Assembly: GCA_031261965.1 (NCBI GenBank)
Contig: JAISIP010000077.1
Location: 1 to 36,635, forward strand
Reading direction: 5' to 3'
Source of the DNA: Victivallales bacterium
GTDB lineage: Bacteria; Verrucomicrobiota; Lentisphaeria; Victivallales; Victivallaceae
DNA length: 36,635 nucleotides
Shown: positions 9,790 through 36,417 of the stretch, piece after piece
Numbering within the stretch: position 1 is the first letter of the stretch
How the letters are laid out: every line of letters starts with the position of its first letter
Notes under the pieces: generated by a model
Told to the model about the DNA's origin: nothing
Seen by the model: the letters and a program-made list of their open reading frames with translations, nothing else
The model's database searches: none
Made by a program: the position numbers and the translations under genes

Positions 9790-11817
9790 GGGCTCATTGA
9801 AGCTGATTTTGCCAAGATATTCGATTTTTAACCGGACGTTGTCTTTGGTTGCTTTCAGCTCGCTACTCTTCACCCAATTGCCGGATTGGTCCAACAAAAG
9901 CACGTCGGGAATCGCCTTTGTCCAGCTCAAATCAAAGCTGACTTTGCCCCAATCGTCCAGATTCAAATTGAAGCACCCGATCACGGTGTTTTCGCCGGAC
10001 TCTTTGCGGAAAGCCAAACTGTACGCCCCGTCGCAAGTTAATTTCAGCGGGAAACTCCGGTCGGCGAGATAATCCACCACCCCATGCAACTGTTCGCGCC
10101 GGAACGGGTGGCAAAATGCCACGCCGAAACTGTATTGATAATCCATGGCGTGAACGATGACTCTCCCCCCCAATGAGTTGGAGTACGCGATCATGGCGGG
10201 CGATACGCGAATGGTGTCGGGATCGACAAAACTGCTGACGATCTGAGCGTCTTGGCTCGGCTCAAGCACGCAAAAACGCCCCATGGTACCCAAATCCGGC
10301 AATGTGCAAGTCATATATTTCCGCTTTTCCCCGCCGAATCCGGGATGATGAAACTCTTCCGCCGAAAGCACAAAGGGCAAATCCCGGCGGTGACACGGCA
10401 TTGCGATGTTCTTCACCCCGATATATTCGCCGAAGCCGCGTTCCAGTAAAATTCCGGCGGCAACCCCGTCCAAAAACATCCCCTTGCGCAAAAACTCCAT
10501 GATTTCAGCATCGCTACACGCCCGCAACACTTGCCCGGAAGCGGCGATTACATCGGAAGAAGTGTATACCGTCGGAATCCCGTGGGATTCCAGTGCTTGC
10601 ATCAGATTAAACCCGTCTTCGCCCAAATCGGGGTAGTCTGCCTTGATCGGCAGATTTTTAACCAAACTTGAATCCTGACGGTGCAGGAGCTGAACTCCGC
10701 AATATTCGCCCTTGCCTCGCACTGCGTCGCCCAAGGCGGCGAGAAACGGCTTTTTTGCCGATAACATTTGCCCGTAATGCTCCTCGTTTTTCATCGGAGT
10801 ACCGACATGGTCGAATAAATTCAACGTTACGCCTTGCGAACCATAGGCAAAAGTGATCGCGATCTCAAGAAAAGTAAACACCGTACTTTTGGAAAATCTC
10901 GTAAACGGCACGTTTTCACACTCCGACTGCTCGATGGTATTCGTCGGCAAAACCGCTCTGGTAAGTTTAATCGAATCTTGTGAATAGTAAAATCCCCGCA
11001 ACGAATCTTCGTTGTAATTGCACATGGGCGGGCGACTGTACAGCTGCTTGCCGTCAGCAAGCGCCTCCGCCAATTTTGTCCAGTCACGTCCTTCCAGGCA
11101 ATGTTGACGCGGACCGCTGGACATCAAACCCAAGCAGCTCTCCGGCGAAATTTTATGCACGGTCTTGGCGATAAACCCGGCGGTTTCAACCATTATTTCC
11201 CGCTGCATAAGCAAATATTCGGCACGCCACGGATGCGGTTTGCCGGGTTGCAAAATCGCCTTGACCAACTGCTCCCGGCTCACTTTTTGCCCGATTCGCT
11301 CGCTGAAACGCGCCATATGCCGATCGCAAAAACAGCCAAACGACACCGGCTCATGGTTAAAAGTGCGAATGTCGTCCTCCACCCACATGATATGAGGTGC
11401 GGTTTCGGCGTAAATCGTCCATAGCTCGACGAAGTGCTCCCGCCACGCCGGGGAAATAAAGCAGGCGCAATGCTTAGCGACGCTGCCGTCGTGACCGACC
11501 GCCGTTTCCAAGCCTTTGATATGATTCAGATCGTTACGACCGCGATCGCAATGCCCGACTGTGATCCACGGGTTTAACGAATAGACGATATTTAATTTTT
11601 GCAACGCTTCTTTGACCTGAAAAAGATTGCCCTGATAACGCTTGGCCCATTCCAGAGTCGGATGCCCGTGGGAAAATTCTTCCGTATCGATTTTTACAAT
11701 AACTTCGTCGATCTTGAATTCCGGGGCTAAACGGATCAGGTCGCTAAGCGTTTCTTCAAATTTCCACGGCGGTAAAGTGCGACGCAACGCATACCATGCT
11801 CCAGAATCTTTGTTCAT
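9763..11817 (-). CDS. Large glycosidase-like protein, family not recognised
   Basis: A 684-residue protein without signal peptide. The first half reads like a (beta/alpha)8 glycosidase: an N-terminal I-D-E-V-I-V-K-I-D strand, Y-S-L-N-P-W-I-T-V, an acid-rich I-M-W-V-E-D-D-I-R-T-F followed by a Cys/His cluster (F-G-C-F-C-D-R-H), a later T-I-E-Q-S-E-C-E stretch that could hold the second carboxylate, then a flavodoxin-like middle (about 390-500) and a small C-terminal beta domain. The arrangement resembles GH42-type architecture, but I cannot assign a GH family. The start at 11817 is chosen because AAGGAT lies 9 nt upstream; a longer frame to 11901 would be translated from MITE copy D and is rejected. 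Likely an intracellular oligosaccharide hydrolase. Confidence 0.75.
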   Translation of the reverse strand: MNKDSGAWYALRRTLPPWKFEETLSDLIRLAPEFKIDEVIVKIDTEEFSHGHPTLEWAKRYQGNLFQVKEALQKLNIVYSLNPWITVGHCDRGRNDLNHIKGLETAVGHDGSVAKHCACFISPAWREHFVELWTIYAETAPHIMWVEDDIRTFNHEPVSFGCFCDRHMARFSERIGQKVSREQLVKAILQPGKPHPWRAEYLLMQREIMVETAGFIAKTVHKISPESCLGLMSSGPRQHCLEGRDWTKLAEALADGKQLYSRPPMCNYNEDSLRGFYYSQDSIKLTRAVLPTNTIEQSECENVPFTRFSKSTVFTFLEIAITFAYGSQGVTLNLFDHVGTPMKNEEHYGQMLSAKKPFLAALGDAVRGKGEYCGVQLLHRQDSSLVKNLPIKADYPDLGEDGFNLMQALESHGIPTVYTSSDVIAASGQVLRACSDAEIMEFLRKGMFLDGVAAGILLERGFGEYIGVKNIAMPCHRRDLPFVLSAEEFHHPGFGGEKRKYMTCTLPDLGTMGRFCVLEPSQDAQIVSSFVDPDTIRVSPAMIAYSNSLGGRVIVHAMDYQYSFGVAFCHPFRREQLHGVVDYLADRSFPLKLTCDGAYSLAFRKESGENTVIGCFNLNLDDWGKVSFDLSWTKAIPDVLLLDQSGNWVKSSELKATKDNVRLKIEYLGKISFNEPLIVKLAQA

Positions 11818-11856
11818 TTTTCTTTTATCCTTTTTGCAATTACCAAGATCCATTAA

Positions 11857-12022
11857 GGGTATCTCTAAAAACTGGGTTGCGTTGAAAATCAGCAGATTCA
11901 TAATTTGGAGGTGCGATTTTGCAAGCGTCTGGCTAACATAGAGTTAACCAGACACGCGCAAGGTCGCGCATACGAATATGAGCTGCAATTTTCAGCCAAA
12001 TTTCCAGTTTTTAGAGATACCC
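11857..12022 (+). mobile_element. MITE copy D, full length (166 bp)
   Basis: This copy has perfect 19-bp terminal inverted repeats, GGGTATCTCTAAAAACTGG and its complement. The central hairpin reads GCGTCTGGCTAAC / GTTAACCAGACAC, with a G-C pair where copy C has A-T. The two halves are also related to each other across the palindrome (left GTTGAAAATCAGCAG against right GCTGAAAATTGCAG in reverse complement). TTAA flanks both ends (11853-11856, 12023-12026). It lies 40 bp upstream of the glycosidase-like ATG, so it is probably in that gene's leader or promoter region. Confidence 0.95.
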
Positions 12023-22403: not shown

Positions 22404-22793
22404 CTACCCGCGACCGATCCGAATATTGCCGTGGAGAAGTGAATCCATCATACGAATTGCGCGGGGCGAGTAATCGGGACTCTCCTTTTCCTCGGGATAC
22501 TCCCAGCTCCGTTGCCCGATGCCGGAAATTTCCTCCGAAATCAACCGCTTTTCCGCCGGGTGGCGGCGGTTTTTACGGGCAAGGTGGATCGCCTGTTCAA
22601 ACAGAGCATTCAGCGCGAGTTTCTCCTCGGAATCCACGTCAACCATGTTGAGGTACAGCGCGACATCCGCCTCAGATTCGACCAGCGAGCTTTGCTTGAT
22701 CTCTTCGGAAAGAACGCTCCACTCTTCCCTGGCGAGATGACGGTGAAAATATTTATCTGCGGCGGAACGCAATTCTGCTAATGTCAACTTCAT
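22404..22793 (-). CDS. Phage head-tail connector-like protein
   Basis: A 129-residue acidic, helical protein. Its place directly after the major capsid gene and its size match gp6-like head-tail connectors, which also have an N-terminal helical bundle around A-V-A-L-Y-L-N-M-V-D and A-L-x-x-L-x-x-x-A-I-H-L-A-R; the I-x-G-I-G-Q-R-S-W-E-Y and S-P-R-A-I-R-M-M-D-S-L-L segments at the end fit the same group. The match is by general features and context, not by a diagnostic motif. The ATG at 22793 follows AGGAG by 7 nt; the longer frame to 22856 has no ribosome binding site. It follows a terminator, so expression may be well below that of the capsid protein. Confidence 0.6.
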   Translation of the reverse strand: MKLTLAELRSAADKYFHRHLAREEWSVLSEEIKQSSLVESEADVALYLNMVDVDSEEKLALNALFEQAIHLARKNRRHPAEKRLISEEISGIGQRSWEYPEEKESPDYSPRAIRMMDSLLHGNIRIGRG

Positions 22794-22817
22794 AATCATT
22801 CTCCTGTGAAAAATCAA

Positions 22818-22849
22818 TAAAAAACGGGGCGGAAACAAAATTCCGCCCC
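22818..22849 (-). terminator. Intrinsic terminator directly after the capsid gene
   Basis: A stem GGGGCGGAA (22826-22834) / TTCCGCCCC (22841-22849) with a 6-nt loop, followed on the minus strand by GTTTTTTATTG. It begins 8 nt beyond the capsid stop and 25 nt before the connector-like ATG, so it partly insulates that gene, comparable in position to the terminator after the T7 capsid gene. Confidence 0.82.
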
Positions 22850-22856
22850 AAAACAT

Positions 22857-23999
22857 TTAGCCGCGCAATTCCGATAGGGCATTGACGCTGTTTTTCAGAT
22901 TCTTCACGCGACAAAGACGCGCATTGGCATTCTTAAAGAGGAATGTCACCTCGCCGAGTGCCATGCGTTTAATGCCGTCGAACCCCTTGGGGGTCGCGTC
23001 CGAATCGGTGATCGCCCGCCCTTTCAGGCTTGCCAGGCCGAACCCGGCGGGATCAACAATCCACGCGTCGGTGTCCGGCATATCCGGGTCGGCCATAACC
23101 GTCATACCGCGACCGTTGATTTCGTTGACAATCACCGCGACATACGCGCCTCGGCGATCGTCGGAACGGACGATTTGAAGCTGGCTTTTGTACTCGTTTG
23201 AAAGCACCCGTGCCTGGCTCGGCGAGCAGAGAATCAACGACGGGTCGCCGCCCGCACCGAGAACCGCCTGCGCCGCGTCGTTGACGGCGACACTGTCAAA
23301 GGTGTTGCCCGAGGCATCCACAACAAGAGCGTTGGAATTGCACCCAAAGAAATACAGTCCTCCGGCTTCGCCGCGAGTGGAGGCGGTCGCCTCAATCCGC
23401 CGCCCGAAAAGAGCCACGCGGTTCAAATCGCGGGCAAGTTCGCCCAGCGCAAAACCGGTCTGTTTATTGAGCTGATTGTCCACTGTGCCAAAGACATTGA
23501 TTGCCAAGGCACTGCCCGAAAGGATAATGTCTTTGCGGAAAATCTGCGTACAGTTAAACGCGGTTTGCCCGGTCAGCCCGGTTTCATCGCCGTCCCCGGC
23601 GGTACTGCCCTCCTGCACCGGGGTCGAAACTATCGAAAGCACATCTCCGGCGGTCGGCATCTCGGTTTCAGAGCCGTTTGCCCCAACCAACGTTAGAGTA
23701 AAGCCGTTGCTGTTCAGCGTCGTGACCCGAAAGAGTGCGGAGTCGTCTTTAATTACCAGCAGTGTTCCGATTTTCAGCTTGGCGAGATCGGAACTTGAGG
23801 TCAAAAGCGTGCCGTTGCTCACTTCGGATACAGTCACGCTGCGCCCGGAGAGCTGATCTTCAAGCCACTCATGTTTCTGCTGGGTGGCATCTTCGCTCGG
23901 CATAAAAAGGCTGATAAAGCGGGGTTCGTCTTTTATTACGGTCGAAAGCACGTCGGATAAATCGCGTTTTTTGTTTTGAAAACTGTAGGTGTACAACAT
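22857..23999 (-). CDS. Phage major capsid protein, SU10/DUF5309 type
   Basis: A 380-residue protein of the SU10-like (DUF5309) major capsid family, an HK97-fold shell protein. Diagnostic blocks are D-E-P-R-F-I-S-L-F near 26-34 and the K-H-E-W-L-E-D-Q-L block near 43-51; a beta-rich insertion with T-L-L-V-I-K and L-T-L-V-G-A-N-G at about 70-125; a central R-K-D-I-I-L-S-G-S helix; E-L-A-R-D-L-N-R-V-A-L-F-G with the G-G-L-Y-F-F loop; and a C-terminal K-R-M-A-L-G-E-V-T-F. The ORF is intact. AAGGAG lies 8 nt before the ATG. The scaffold-like gene is upstream and the connector-like one downstream; terminase, portal, protease and tail genes are absent nearby. It could be a prophage remnant, part of a split agent, or a domesticated shell. 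Confidence 0.85.
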   Translation of the reverse strand: MLYTYSFQNKKRDLSDVLSTVIKDEPRFISLFMPSEDATQQKHEWLEDQLSGRSVTVSEVSNGTLLTSSSDLAKLKIGTLLVIKDDSALFRVTTLNSNGFTLTLVGANGSETEMPTAGDVLSIVSTPVQEGSTAGDGDETGLTGQTAFNCTQIFRKDIILSGSALAINVFGTVDNQLNKQTGFALGELARDLNRVALFGRRIEATASTRGEAGGLYFFGCNSNALVVDASGNTFDSVAVNDAAQAVLGAGGDPSLILCSPSQARVLSNEYKSQLQIVRSDDRRGAYVAVIVNEINGRGMTVMADPDMPDTDAWIVDPAGFGLASLKGRAITDSDATPKGFDGIKRMALGEVTFLFKNANARLCRVKNLKNSVNALSELRG

Positions 24000-24026
24000 G
24001 TTTATAACTCCTTGATTTATAAATTT

Positions 24027-24587
24027 TTAATCGTTTATGGTCGGGGCATCGGCGAGCAACGAGGCAATATCATTGCCGACGCGCCGCTGGCTGACCGGGG
24101 TCGCCGCCGGCGGCAATTCGGGTGCGCCGGGAGCGAGATTGAGCTTAAAGAGCCGAGGCGAATTTTCGCGCAAACTCTTCATAAAAGGCTCGGTTGCGTC
24201 GGTCGATTCCGGGTCGATTTGATTTTGTGAGCAGAGGTATTCGAGGTAATCGGCATCGGCAAACCCCTGATCTTTCGCCAGGCGATCGACCCGGTTGCGA
24301 AACCCGATACGCTCAAGCTCCTTTTTGGCGGCGTCGCGTTCTGCGCCGGTGCTTTGCAAACACTCCTGCATTCGCGCCAACTCGGAATCGTATTTGCGCC
24401 GCAGCTGCTCGGGTTCGGTCAAGGCGCTTTTTTCCAACTCTTCAAGCCGCATTTCAAGTTCGCGATTGCGCTTTTCCAGCGCGGCGGAACTTTTCTCATC
24501 GGGGCGGAACTTGGCGAGCAAGGAACGCTCCTGCTCACTTAACACTTCTCCCGCCGCGGCTTTCCCGATGATGTCATTTAAATTCAT
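24027..24587 (-). CDS. Phage scaffold-like coiled-coil protein
   Basis: A 186-residue protein with a short N-terminal segment (L-N-D-I-I-G-K-A), a coiled coil at about 35-110 rich in E, K, R and A (E-K-R-N-R-E-L-E-M-R-L-E-E-L-E), and a C-terminal part with conserved-looking R-V-D-R-L-A-K-D-Q-G-F-A-D-A-D-Y-L-E-Y-L, then a Pro-rich tail. This is the typical architecture of capsid scaffold proteins such as the GP20 group, and it is placed right before the capsid gene. The ATG at 24587 is chosen because AAGGAGA precedes it; a longer frame to 24677 adds 30 basic residues without support. No enzymatic motif is present, so it would guide shell assembly. Confidence 0.68.
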   Translation of the reverse strand: MNLNDIIGKAAAGEVLSEQERSLLAKFRPDEKSSAALEKRNRELEMRLEELEKSALTEPEQLRRKYDSELARMQECLQSTGAERDAAKKELERIGFRNRVDRLAKDQGFADADYLEYLCSQNQIDPESTDATEPFMKSLRENSPRLFKLNLAPGAPELPPAATPVSQRRVGNDIASLLADAPTIND

Positions 24588-24678: not shown

Positions 24679-24695
24679 AAAAGTTGTCAACTTTT
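24679..24695. promoter_or_regulatory. Palindrome upstream of capsid cassette
   Basis: AAAAGTTG (24679-24686) and CAACTTTT (24688-24695) form a perfect palindrome around one base and contain a minus-strand TTGACA (24685-24690). No good -10 follows at the right spacing. It may be an operator or promoter part for the cassette 90 nt downstream. Confidence 0.35.
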
Positions 24696-24710: not shown

Positions 24711-24747
24711 AAAAAAACGGCTTGTGCAAAAATGCACAAGCCGTTTT
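24711..24747 (-). terminator. Intrinsic terminator after small basic protein gene
   Basis: A 14-bp perfect stem AAAACGGCTTGTGC (24714-24727) / GCACAAGCCGTTTT (24734-24747) with a 6-nt loop. On the minus strand it ends in TTTTTTT. It isolates the small basic protein gene from the capsid cassette on the same strand. Confidence 0.88.
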
Positions 24748-24779: not shown

Positions 24780-24890
24780 TTATTTTTTCTTGGCGGCAAC
24801 GCCGATCGCGGCGCGAATTTTCGCCTTGCAACGTTCAAGATAAGCTTTGCGGCTGCGGCGTTTCTGAATTTTATTAAGTTGCTGTCCCAT
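24780..24890 (-). CDS. Small basic protein, probable PVC signature protein
   Basis: A 36-codon gene. The product begins MGQQLNKIQKRRSRKAYLER, continues C-K-A-K-I-R-A-A-I-G-V, and ends with A-A-K-K-K. It has 13 Lys/Arg and almost no acidic residues. AGGAG lies 6 nt before the ATG and a strong terminator follows 33 nt after the TAA, so this is a complete monocistron. Size, charge and the MGQ-x-x-N-K-x-x-K-R-R start resemble, as far as I remember it, the small basic nucleic-acid-binding protein used as a signature of the PVC superphylum; I cannot verify this here. If right, it would act on RNA or the ribosome in the cytosol. Confidence 0.78.
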   Translation of the reverse strand: MGQQLNKIQKRRSRKAYLERCKAKIRAAIGVAAKKK

Positions 24891-34268: not shown

Positions 34269-35312
34269 TCATACCGGAATTATTTGAGCATTAAAAAAAT
34301 ATTTTTCCGGAGGCGGTTCGGTAAAAGTAAAAAACTGTTGATCCGCCCCGGATATTGCATCAAAAAAATCGATCTTATTTTTTTCATCCAATTCGTTAGT
34401 TACATCATCGATTAAAACCGCCACTTTCTCATGGGCAAAGCGACGGATTAAATTAAATTCCGATAACTTTAAAAGCAACGAAATCATTCTTATTTGACCG
34501 TTAGAACCGTAATATCGCAACTCTTTTTTGTTCAAAAAGAACTCAAATTCATCTAATTGAGGACCCTTTAGAGTACATCCGCGAATAATCTCTTTTTCTC
34601 TGTTTTTTTCTAAAAGAAACATATAATCTTGAGAATTATCAGGATAATCAGAGCGGTAATTTATTGAAAAAATTCCCTCATTTCGCCGTGAAAGGAGCAG
34701 ATTTAACTCTTTTTCAATTATTTTACTGTATTTGTGCCGTTTTTCCGAAATAATCGGACCGTTTATCGCCAATTCCGGCTCAAATGCTGCGATTATTTTG
34801 CTGTTTATGCCTGTTTTTAACGCCTTGTTTCGTTGCGAAAGCGCCCGACTGTATGAAGATAATGAACTTAAATAATCGCCGTCCAAAGTAGAGATAAGCA
34901 TATCGAAAAAGCGACGGCGAAAAGACGAGCTGCCGTTTGCAATATGATGATCTTCAGGAACAAAAACTACGGTTCTAAATTCCCGTATAAATTCACTTGA
35001 ACGCCGAATTCGATTGGAGTCTATCCACGTTTCCCGCTTATTGCCCTGTTGGATGACTTTTAAATTTTCGGAGTAGCCATTGAGGGCAATCAGAGCGGAC
35101 AACTCAAAATTATTGGAACCTATCTTAAATAAATCCCTGATAGACGCACCACGAAATGAACGCAGAATACTTAAAAAATAGATTGCTTCTAAAATTGTGG
35201 TTTTCCCGACACCGTTAGCACCGGATAAAACCACCTTTTCCGCCGAAAAATCTATCTCTTTTTTAGCGTAATTTCTAAAATTATATAACTTAAGTTTTTT
35301 TAGGAGCGGCAC
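34269..35312 (-). CDS. recF: RecF, DNA replication and repair ATPase
   Basis: A 347-residue RecF, an SMC-like ATPase that helps RecO and RecR load RecA at gaps. The Walker A is SGANGVGKTT (Lys38), after the family start K-L-K-L-Y-N-F-R-N-Y. The signature region and Walker B (V-L-I-D-D-V-T-N-E-L-D-E) are near the end. The start is GTG at 35312, 10 nt after the dnaN stop; no better start exists and the ribosome binding site is weak, so translation may depend on dnaN. Codon use is AT-rich compared with uvrA and recBCD. Confidence 0.95.
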   Translation of the reverse strand: MPLLKKLKLYNFRNYAKKEIDFSAEKVVLSGANGVGKTTILEAIYFLSILRSFRGASIRDLFKIGSNNFELSALIALNGYSENLKVIQQGNKRETWIDSNRIRRSSEFIREFRTVVFVPEDHHIANGSSSFRRRFFDMLISTLDGDYLSSLSSYSRALSQRNKALKTGINSKIIAAFEPELAINGPIISEKRHKYSKIIEKELNLLLSRRNEGIFSINYRSDYPDNSQDYMFLLEKNREKEIIRGCTLKGPQLDEFEFFLNKKELRYYGSNGQIRMISLLLKLSEFNLIRRFAHEKVAVLIDDVTNELDEKNKIDFFDAISGADQQFFTFTEPPPEKYFFNAQIIPV

Positions 35313-35322
35313 GTTAGTTTAG

Positions 35323-36417
35323 TTATTTCTTGCGAATCGGCATAATTACGTAGAGAAAACCTTCATCACCCTCTATAGCAACCGGATTTAGCGGGTCATT
35401 AAACTTCATACGAATCGACTCCGACTCACAATTACGCAACGGATCGGCTAAAAAAACCGGATTAAATGACACTTCAAACAGTTCACCATTATAAGCAATA
35501 TCCACCATGTCGCTGCCTTCACCAACTTCGACACTTGAAGCCTGAAGCTTTAATTGATTATCTTCAAAGTGCAAAATTATATAACTGCTGGAGTCAGAGA
35601 GAATCAGAGAAACCGTCTCAATTTTATTTAAAAACAGCGATTTGGAAATGTCAACCGTACTGCTGAACGATGCCGGAACCACCTGCCGGTAATTGGGATA
35701 ATTTCCATCTATCAATTTAGTCGTCAACTCAAAGTTTTTGCCGATAAAGGTACACTGTTTGTCGCCAAGTTGGATTGTCAGATCGCCGTCACCGTCTAAA
35801 AGCCTCCTCACTTCCTTGGCGGCTTTTAACGGAATGATCACATCCTGATCACCGCCGGAAATAGATTCTATTGCTTTTTCCTGCATGGCAAGGCGTTTTC
35901 CGTCGGTGGCAACCAGCGTTAAGCAACCTTCTTTTACACTAAATAAAATCCCTGTCAAAGCTTTGCGGGAGTCATCCGCGCTAACTGCATACGCTATCGA
36001 GCCGACCATCTTTTTAAATTCAGACTCTTTAATCTTAATTTCGCCTTTTACCTCAAACTTCTCCTCTTTGGGAAAATCTTCGGCGGGAAGCCCGAGCAAC
36101 TTAAAATTACTGGTTCCGCAAATCAAATTTATATGATCTTTTTCGTTGATCTCAAAAATCACATTTTCGCCGACAAAACAGCCGACTAACGACGCTAATT
36201 TATTAGCCGGAGCGGTAGAAACACCCGGTGACTCCACGGTAGCTTCAAGAGTGGTTGACAATCTTATTTCGAGGTCGGTAGTTGATAAAATCAGACTATT
36301 TTCCTTAGCTTCAATTTTAACATTGCTAAGAACCGGAAACATCGAACGTGACCCGATAATGCTGCCTAACCGTTGCAACGCTTTTTGCAACTTTTCACGC
36401 TTAACAGTAAATTTCAT
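35323..36417 (-). CDS. dnaN: DnaN, DNA polymerase III beta sliding clamp
   Basis: A 364-residue beta clamp, which forms the ring dimer that tethers Pol III to DNA. The start MKFTVKREKLQKALQ, the T-D-L-E-I segment, the A-T-D-G-K-R-L-A middle block and the Y-V-I-M-P-I-R C-terminal end are the family landmarks, and the length is normal (366 in E. coli). GGGAG is 7 nt before the ATG. It is the first gene of the dnaN-recF-radical SAM group. No dnaA is present immediately upstream in the part visible; MITE copy F follows instead. Confidence 0.98.
   Translation of the reverse strand: MKFTVKREKLQKALQRLGSIIGSRSMFPVLSNVKIEAKENSLILSTTDLEIRLSTTLEATVESPGVSTAPANKLASLVGCFVGENVIFEINEKDHINLICGTSNFKLLGLPAEDFPKEEKFEVKGEIKIKESEFKKMVGSIAYAVSADDSRKALTGILFSVKEGCLTLVATDGKRLAMQEKAIESISGGDQDVIIPLKAAKEVRRLLDGDGDLTIQLGDKQCTFIGKNFELTTKLIDGNYPNYRQVVPASFSSTVDISKSLFLNKIETVSLILSDSSSYIILHFEDNQLKLQASSVEVGEGSDMVDIAYNGELFEVSFNPVFLADPLRNCESESIRMKFNDPLNPVAIEGDEGFLYVIMPIRKK

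Follow-up and report, generated by a model that had tools for sequence, protein, structure and literature searches.

A capsid cassette beside recD in Victivallaceae as the probable head unit of a dispersed, gene-transfer-agent-like viriform

Three genes of a tailed-phage head lie next to recD in a Victivallales bacterium (GCA_031261965.1, here genome G000), on a contig of 36,635 nucleotides that was analysed over its full length and is called the window (JAISIP010000077.1; contig C183 of an assembly of 209 contigs, 89% complete). Why should a capsid cassette stand among host genes, and where is the rest of the particle? The first-pass annotation of this DNA had offered three readings: a domesticated shell, a gene-transfer-agent (GTA)-like particle with dispersed genes, and the remnant of a recent deletion. 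A single portal gene and a single large terminase gene elsewhere in the genome, together with their co-occurrence and co-inheritance with the capsid, favour the second. We put at roughly three in four the probability that the cassette is the head unit of a GTA-like viriform, that is, a tailed-phage particle domesticated by Victivallaceae, with its genes scattered as units of one to a few genes.

The head unit and its partners in the same genome

The three adjacent minus-strand genes, each preceded by a ribosome-binding site, were confirmed by profiles and fold comparison as scaffold, SU10-type capsid and adaptor. The first gene of the unit (24027..24587, minus strand) encodes a scaffolding protein of 186 aa, with a sub-threshold match to PF06810 (E 2.4e-5); its position upstream of the major capsid protein (MCP) is kept in relatives and phages. 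The MCP itself (22857..23999, minus strand; 380 aa) is a clear member of the SU10_MCP family PF17236 (E 1e-48; 166.8 bits against a cut-off of 24.1) and matches phrog_1328 (3.3e-35), and a PDB sequence search with it gave no match. The third protein, of 129 aa (22404..22793, minus strand), had no convincing family match in Pfam or PHROG. Structure prediction, which the first-pass annotation had proposed, gave a confident AlphaFold2 model (pLDDT 88.8) with the helical bundle and beta hairpin of HK97 gp6-type head-tail adaptors and a fold match above that of unrelated chains. All of the 12 best VIA-align rows were either yqbG or proteins of phage necks and adaptors, although Foldseek by itself found nothing at E<=1e-3. 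The adaptor family is also present beside the capsid in relatives.

Two terminator-like hairpins were recognised by pattern match on the minus strand, in a scan of the region that found 8 against 4.9 expected. One, of 10 pairs, lies between the capsid and adaptor genes (22825..22850) and could lower adaptor output relative to capsid. The other, of 15 pairs (24714..24747), lies between a 36-aa ORF and the promoter-like element described below, and would set the head unit apart from the neighbouring gene. The 36-aa ORF is basic (24780-24890, minus strand), has a good ribosome-binding site and is followed by this strong hairpin; a search of 77 loci turned up no relative, and no family profile matched convincingly.

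No other structural phage family among those listed was found in the 24 window ORFs of at least 90 aa, in agreement with the first-pass annotation. The remaining genes are of host type (recC, recB, recD, uvrA, dnaN), with the cassette beside recD. The recF-like and dnaN genes occupy 34269-36417 (minus strand), and this contig end is possibly near the replication origin. The cassette had been called isolated, which holds within the window and fails for the genome, as portal, large terminase and tail-terminator-like genes lie on other contigs.

The search for a matching portal and terminase, also proposed earlier, found one copy of each, both without internal stops: the portal at G000:C21:13344-14726 and the large terminase (TerL) at C142:680-1915. 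The profiles used came from phages and from relatives whose portal and TerL genes lie beside the capsid gene. In PDB sequence searches TerL gave weak matches to a large terminase and the portal a chance match only. The capsid search of this genome returned a single match, so that no second capsid copy indicative of a parent prophage was found. A small connector-like ORF accompanies the portal on C21. The start of TerL is overlapped by a gene of about 500 aa, A7, which spans the contig ends C158/C142; it matched neither Pfam nor PHROG families, nor any phage protein with which it was compared. Outside genus g15 (44 genomes), A7 and capsid occurred together in 31 genomes, capsid only in 3, A7 only in 1 and neither in 9. 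By eye, two near-identical tandem tRNA-like sequences were seen directly in front of this unit, within the last 210 bases that precede A7 (L228).

Of the tail, a 432-aa ORF on C88 matches the profile of a fused tail tube and tail terminator (hhalign E 1.5e-9). Among the loci L118 (2269-3564, minus strand), L098, L099, L108, L110 and L113-L115, several carriers show these two domains fused into one protein, and the window's genus a terminator-like ORF of 430-530 aa that is apparently internally repeated. The tail-tube profile matched 25 of 100 genomes and none of the 9 of the window's genus. A tail-tube protein of strain zth2 (genome G017) was modelled with pLDDT 72; at E<=1e-3 the model gave 28 matches in the PDB, with tail-tube and related proteins at the top. 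A tape measure, searched with the protein of prophage L094, was matched in 24 of 100 genomes, the window's own not among them, with the longest matches in G012 and G029 (prophage contigs) and in G023. The helical ORF A6 was considered as a short tape measure and rejected, being present in 14 of 100 genomes rather than family-wide and having no profile similarity to a phage tape measure. A 267-aa ORF on C68 (L273), which single-linkage BLAST had joined as a second terminator, was dropped after direct comparisons gave no support.

A common upstream element and the small terminase

A promoter-like element, AAAAGTTGACA, precedes the head unit (24685..24695, minus strand), and AAARGTTGACW stands upstream of all four units of G000, namely head, portal, A7-terminase and tail terminator. 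Among carriers outside g15, in the interval from -150 to +60 of the start, the core RGTTGAC was present at 76 of 124 unit starts and at 19 of 608 control ORFs of the same loci (p 1e-51; here, as in all counts and p values given, related genomes are counted singly, yet are not independent observations). By unit, the counts were 23/35 for portal, 8/29 for TerL, 14/18 for A7, 22/28 for scaffold and 9/14 for tube/terminator. Units with less than 150 nt upstream and three TerL genes directly behind A7 were left out, and the TerL misses still include genes behind A7 (for example in G000, G002, G003 and G005) or behind the small terminase.

The exact 11-mer occurs 12 times in G000, 10 in G002, 9 in G003 and 12 in G005. 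G006, a sister genome that has no capsid, portal or TerL gene, contains it once. These whole-genome totals are not enriched, the reversed pattern giving 7, 14, 13, 16 and 5 in the same order. Six of the 12 sites in G000 lie outside ORFs of at least 120 aa and away from gene starts: those of the four units and one each on C68 and C92. Those at C14, C19, C36, C161 and C185 (two) overlap ORFs on the same or the opposite strand, or fall where an ORF starts, and were set aside as chance. The C68 site precedes an ORF without known family, and both the C68 and C92 sites have counterparts in three sister genomes. At L274:1554, L279, L287 and L295 (G000, G002, G003 and G005, respectively) the element comes with an identical TTGACATTATCAAT, followed downstream by a conserved CATAACG...ATTATGCGAC-like stretch in which the four genomes share no ORF. 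This is possibly a small RNA or regulator site; an Rfam scan of the conserved non-coding element at L274 and its counterparts gave no match.

A pattern scan found a good -35 and no clear canonical -10 with the element. RGTTGACA also lies 28-76 nt before four structural genes of the phage contig L076, and the element precedes the small terminase gene in 4 of 12 g15 loci; it therefore looks like an inherited phage late promoter.

Element sites in G002 and G003 led to a small terminase (TerS) of 100 aa, located in these two genomes and not in G000. Of the 319 profile positions of phrog_309, the G002 frame matches only 198-255, and five phage homologues of 151-177 aa carry an additional N-terminal region. 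In this protein family the N-terminal region is described as DNA-binding, and the small terminase of the gene transfer agent RcGTA appears to be without that domain, an absence put forward by its authors as the reason why packaging is random (PMC6854486). The C-terminal-only, GTA-type form is found in G002 and G003; G038 (94 aa) and several g15 rows (77-105 aa) likewise have a short protein. By sequence, loss of the N-terminal part is not universal among carriers, since it is retained in G009, G017, G027, G033, G092, G097 and other g15 rows. The element further stands before a collagen-like, fibre-like protein in G002 and G003 (592 and 561 aa) and before a protein of 207-217 aa in the same two genomes (403 aa in G005).

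Distribution, scattering and inheritance

We searched 198 relatives and found capsid in 74, portal in 73 and TerL in 90, some of these matches being remote, phage-like and from other families. For the 78 genomes of the family (G000-G077) the counts were 64, 65 and 66, so that absence from all relatives, which would have spoken against a maintained cassette, was not observed. Capsid and portal agreed in 77 of 78 genomes (64 with both, portal only in G004, 13 with neither; p 6e-14), capsid and TerL in 76 and portal and TerL in 77, with fragments scored as present; G068 is counted for TerL on 37 matching residues, and G008 for capsid on a fragment plus a prophage-like copy. Twelve family genomes are without all three genes; the five of these present on the RecA tree are scattered among carriers, which suggests joint loss. 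In a second family, G092 and G097 carry all three genes, as does G085 with a partial TerL.

Components were damaged in a few carriers, and mostly intact elsewhere. In G008 (Victivallis vadensis DSM 14823, NZ_QEKH01000031, which falls under the same genus code as the window) the capsid is cut down to residues 292-379, in addition to a prophage-like copy with 47% identity; its portal and TerL genes are intact. The last 88 capsid residues remain there (L132:9921-10184), with a large serine recombinase gene beside the break (10310-11866), near a contig end. G034 has a capsid with a gap and a frame change, G014 a portal with stops and a short TerL, and G004 a portal with the capsid missing. The frameshifted capsid variants that the first-pass annotation had named as adverse to its view thus exist, as exceptions. 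In the g4 genomes G011, G028 and G039, TerL appeared as 7, 4 and 6 matches, many at contig ends, as if multi-copy in that genus. Capsids of G112, G115 and G133 in another family, f4, are 51-52% identical to that of the window; they are probably prophages, with a tape-measure-like gene about 15 kb away in G112 and G115.

The arrangement of the genes divides the carriers. In g15, capsid, portal and TerL lie on one contig within about 5.5 kb in 29 of 30 carriers, the exception being G062 with its capsid at a contig end. A repressor-like gene adjoins this cluster in the eight loci fetched (S24 peptidase domain tested in two), and TerS lies upstream of it in many. The other 34 capsid carriers of the family have no such cluster except in prophage copies (G012:C10, G014:C90); outside g15, capsid and portal were within 20 kb of each other only in G012, G017 and G033, with TerL elsewhere. 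The single contig of G017 (zth2, CP071032) carries units at about 0.74, 1.28, 1.60, 1.77, 1.79 and 2.60 Mb, and one 3.9-Mb contig of G026 carries them at 0.52, 0.57, 1.86, 2.24 and 2.59 Mb, a span of 2.1 Mb. Because these long contigs show it too, the scattering does not come from fragmented assemblies.

In maximum-likelihood trees, built from 48 rows for capsid, 52 for portal and 48 for TerL, host genera stay together almost perfectly. Host-label changes numbered 14, 15 and 15, respectively, against minima of 14, 15 and 14, and none of 200 shuffles was as low; of the individual genera, g1 needs two changes for the capsid and g15 two for TerL. Host groups of at least two rows fell on one side of a branch in 9/10 (MCP), 9/9 (portal) and 8/9 (TerL) cases. 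Phage rows lie at several places among the host rows, and in the capsid and portal trees the longest branches are among those of phage. Distances correlate between the unlinked genes (r 0.75-0.82) and with RecA (0.62-0.84; 13-17 genomes, Mantel).

Finite dN/dS values, from up to 14 close pairs with synonymous sites near saturation in many, were 0.02-0.16 for capsid, 0.06-0.19 for portal, 0.05-0.14 for TerL, 0.05-0.34 for scaffold and 0.12-0.26 for adaptor. These low ratios, a check suggested at the outset, indicate purifying selection and, with the presence of the capsid throughout most of the family, give no support to the reading as what a recent deletion left behind. In TerL, all 48 rows (3 of them phage) keep the Walker B glutamate and the acidic nuclease residues, and 47 the Walker A lysine, where the remaining row has a gap.

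Function, alternatives and known systems

From these genes, the following sequence of events is proposed for the putative particle. A regulator acting through the element would switch the units on together in some cells. Scaffold and capsid would build a prohead on the portal, and a terminase whose small subunit, in two sister genomes, is short of the DNA-recognition part would load it with host DNA, without selection. Adaptor, connector, terminator and tube proteins would complete a short tail, and the particle would deliver host DNA to kin. Since no locus of G000 holds more than a few genes, the element could not package or transmit itself as a phage does.

The strongest competitor, which we regard as improbable, is again a domesticated tailed particle made from the same dispersed genes, but with a role other than gene transfer: it could kill in the manner of PBSX, or be released, filled with DNA, when strains compete. 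Structure and evolution agree with it just as well, and the collagen-like, fibre-like genes that carry the element in two sister genomes suit it; but the conserved terminase with intact catalytic residues and the C-terminal-only TerS of some carriers point to unselected packaging, and no sign of killing was seen. That the units are leftovers of an ancient, decaying prophage kept by chance is considerably harder to accept. The damaged components in G008, G014 and G034 and the complete prophage relatives in a few genomes (L041/L094, L116, L117) would agree with decay. Against it stand three unlinked genes that are mostly intact and in single copy in 64-66 of 78 genomes and are present or absent jointly, as well as dN/dS well below 1 and a shared element. 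Slightly less credible still is a mobile satellite (a capsid-forming island) or a still-moving phage with a split genome: true phages do have related capsid, portal and TerL genes (L041, L073-L076), with rows among the host rows of the trees, but the units have host genes around them and are on different contigs, and each of the three genes recovers host genera as monophyletic. Least plausible of all is a capsid-only shell, an encapsulin-like nanocompartment without DNA, as the window with only scaffold, capsid and adaptor might suggest, because portal and TerL, which an HK97-fold encapsulin shell does without, co-occur and co-evolve with this capsid, and an adaptor makes sense only with a portal vertex.

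The GTA-like reading can be compared with the definition of Kogay et al. 2022, which gives six features (PMC9662315). Three of them are found here: caudoviricete-derived proteins of a caudovirion-like particle, by profile or fold similarity (capsid, portal, TerL, adaptor, tail tube); full endogenisation, often at multiple loci (separate contigs in G000, six loci in G017 and five in G026); and mostly vertical inheritance with co-diversification, seen in the genus grouping of three unlinked genes and the Mantel correlations with RecA. The other three features are packaging of mostly random host DNA, on which the TerS without N-terminal part in G002, G003 and some of g15 bears only indirectly; a genome that does not fit whole into its particle, for which loci about 2 Mb apart in G017 and G026 would hardly be taken up jointly; and delivery of DNA to other cells. 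Judged from genes, the system thus appears GTA-like by anatomy and evolution.

RcGTA and its Rhodogtaviriformidae relatives in Alphaproteobacteria are described as similar in having caudoviricete-derived genes in several host loci and vertical inheritance (PMC9662315), and RcGTA further in its small terminase without the N-terminal DNA-binding domain (PMC6854486). Judged from such descriptions, the Victivallaceae system differs in its SU10-type capsid and its host phylum. RcGTA is reported to occupy five loci, about 20 kb in all (PMC9662315), whereas in Victivallaceae outside one genus the head, portal and terminase genes themselves are apart. BaGTA of Bartonella and VSH-1 of Brachyspira, compared by description only, are likewise presented as independently exapted GTAs. 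A saving in amino-acid cost has been reported for alphaproteobacterial GTAs. Such a bias is absent here, as the costs overlap those of the phage relatives. The genes of PBSX of Bacillus subtilis form one cluster, in contrast to the dispersed Victivallaceae units. PBSX is alike in being described as a GTA-like element that packages 13.4-kb host DNA (PMC12946183).

Among phages, the best-ranked capsids of 50,697 records were those of MRSA107 (Brevibacillus) and vB_BauS_KLEB27-1 (Bacillus), with SU10-type capsids of 28-29% identity over 98%; unlike the Victivallaceae units, these are ordinary phage genomes. Best-ranked identities in the same records were 29% for capsid, 26% for portal and 47% for TerL (of G017), so that by sequence comparison no annotated phage is close to the system. 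Prophage L041/L094 of G012 and the IMG/VR contigs L073, L074 and L076 have related portal, scaffold, capsid (63-66% identity) and adaptor genes. They differ in being contiguous, with minor head, neck, tape measure and tail tube genes between (seen in L094 and L076), and in L073 and L076 additional genes separate the capsid from the adaptor.

One carrier of dispersed units, G017, is the genome of strain zth2. Fed laminarin or starch, this strain is reported to release filamentous, hexagonal and icosahedral phage-like particles, with phage-associated genes up 4- to 200-fold and assembled phage genomes said to lie outside the chromosomes (PMC11361711). Its particles possibly come from the dispersed units, which we take as a lead, not as evidence.

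The best reading of these data is a viriform domesticated independently and expressed as a scattered regulon. We lean, by a narrower measure, towards a bolder form of it: a first GTA of the PVC superphylum that is "exploded", in the sense that phage genes each with a late promoter were broken into units with their co-expression kept, the particle having become a host regulon. If that is true, the hexagonal zth2 particles would be, at least in part, the exploded agent. Among the matches listed by literature searches on GTAs, capsids and prophages in Lentisphaerota, Victivallales and Verrucomicrobiota there was no such system. The dispersed viriform would therefore add an independent GTA origin in a phylum without one in the searched literature, and would show that a GTA can persist with scattered genes. 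It would also offer a way to find others, by looking for co-occurring single-copy head genes at unlinked loci with a shared promoter rather than for prophage clusters, and it makes the source of the hexagonal phage-like particles reported from zth2, of the Lentisphaerota (PMC11361711), testable.
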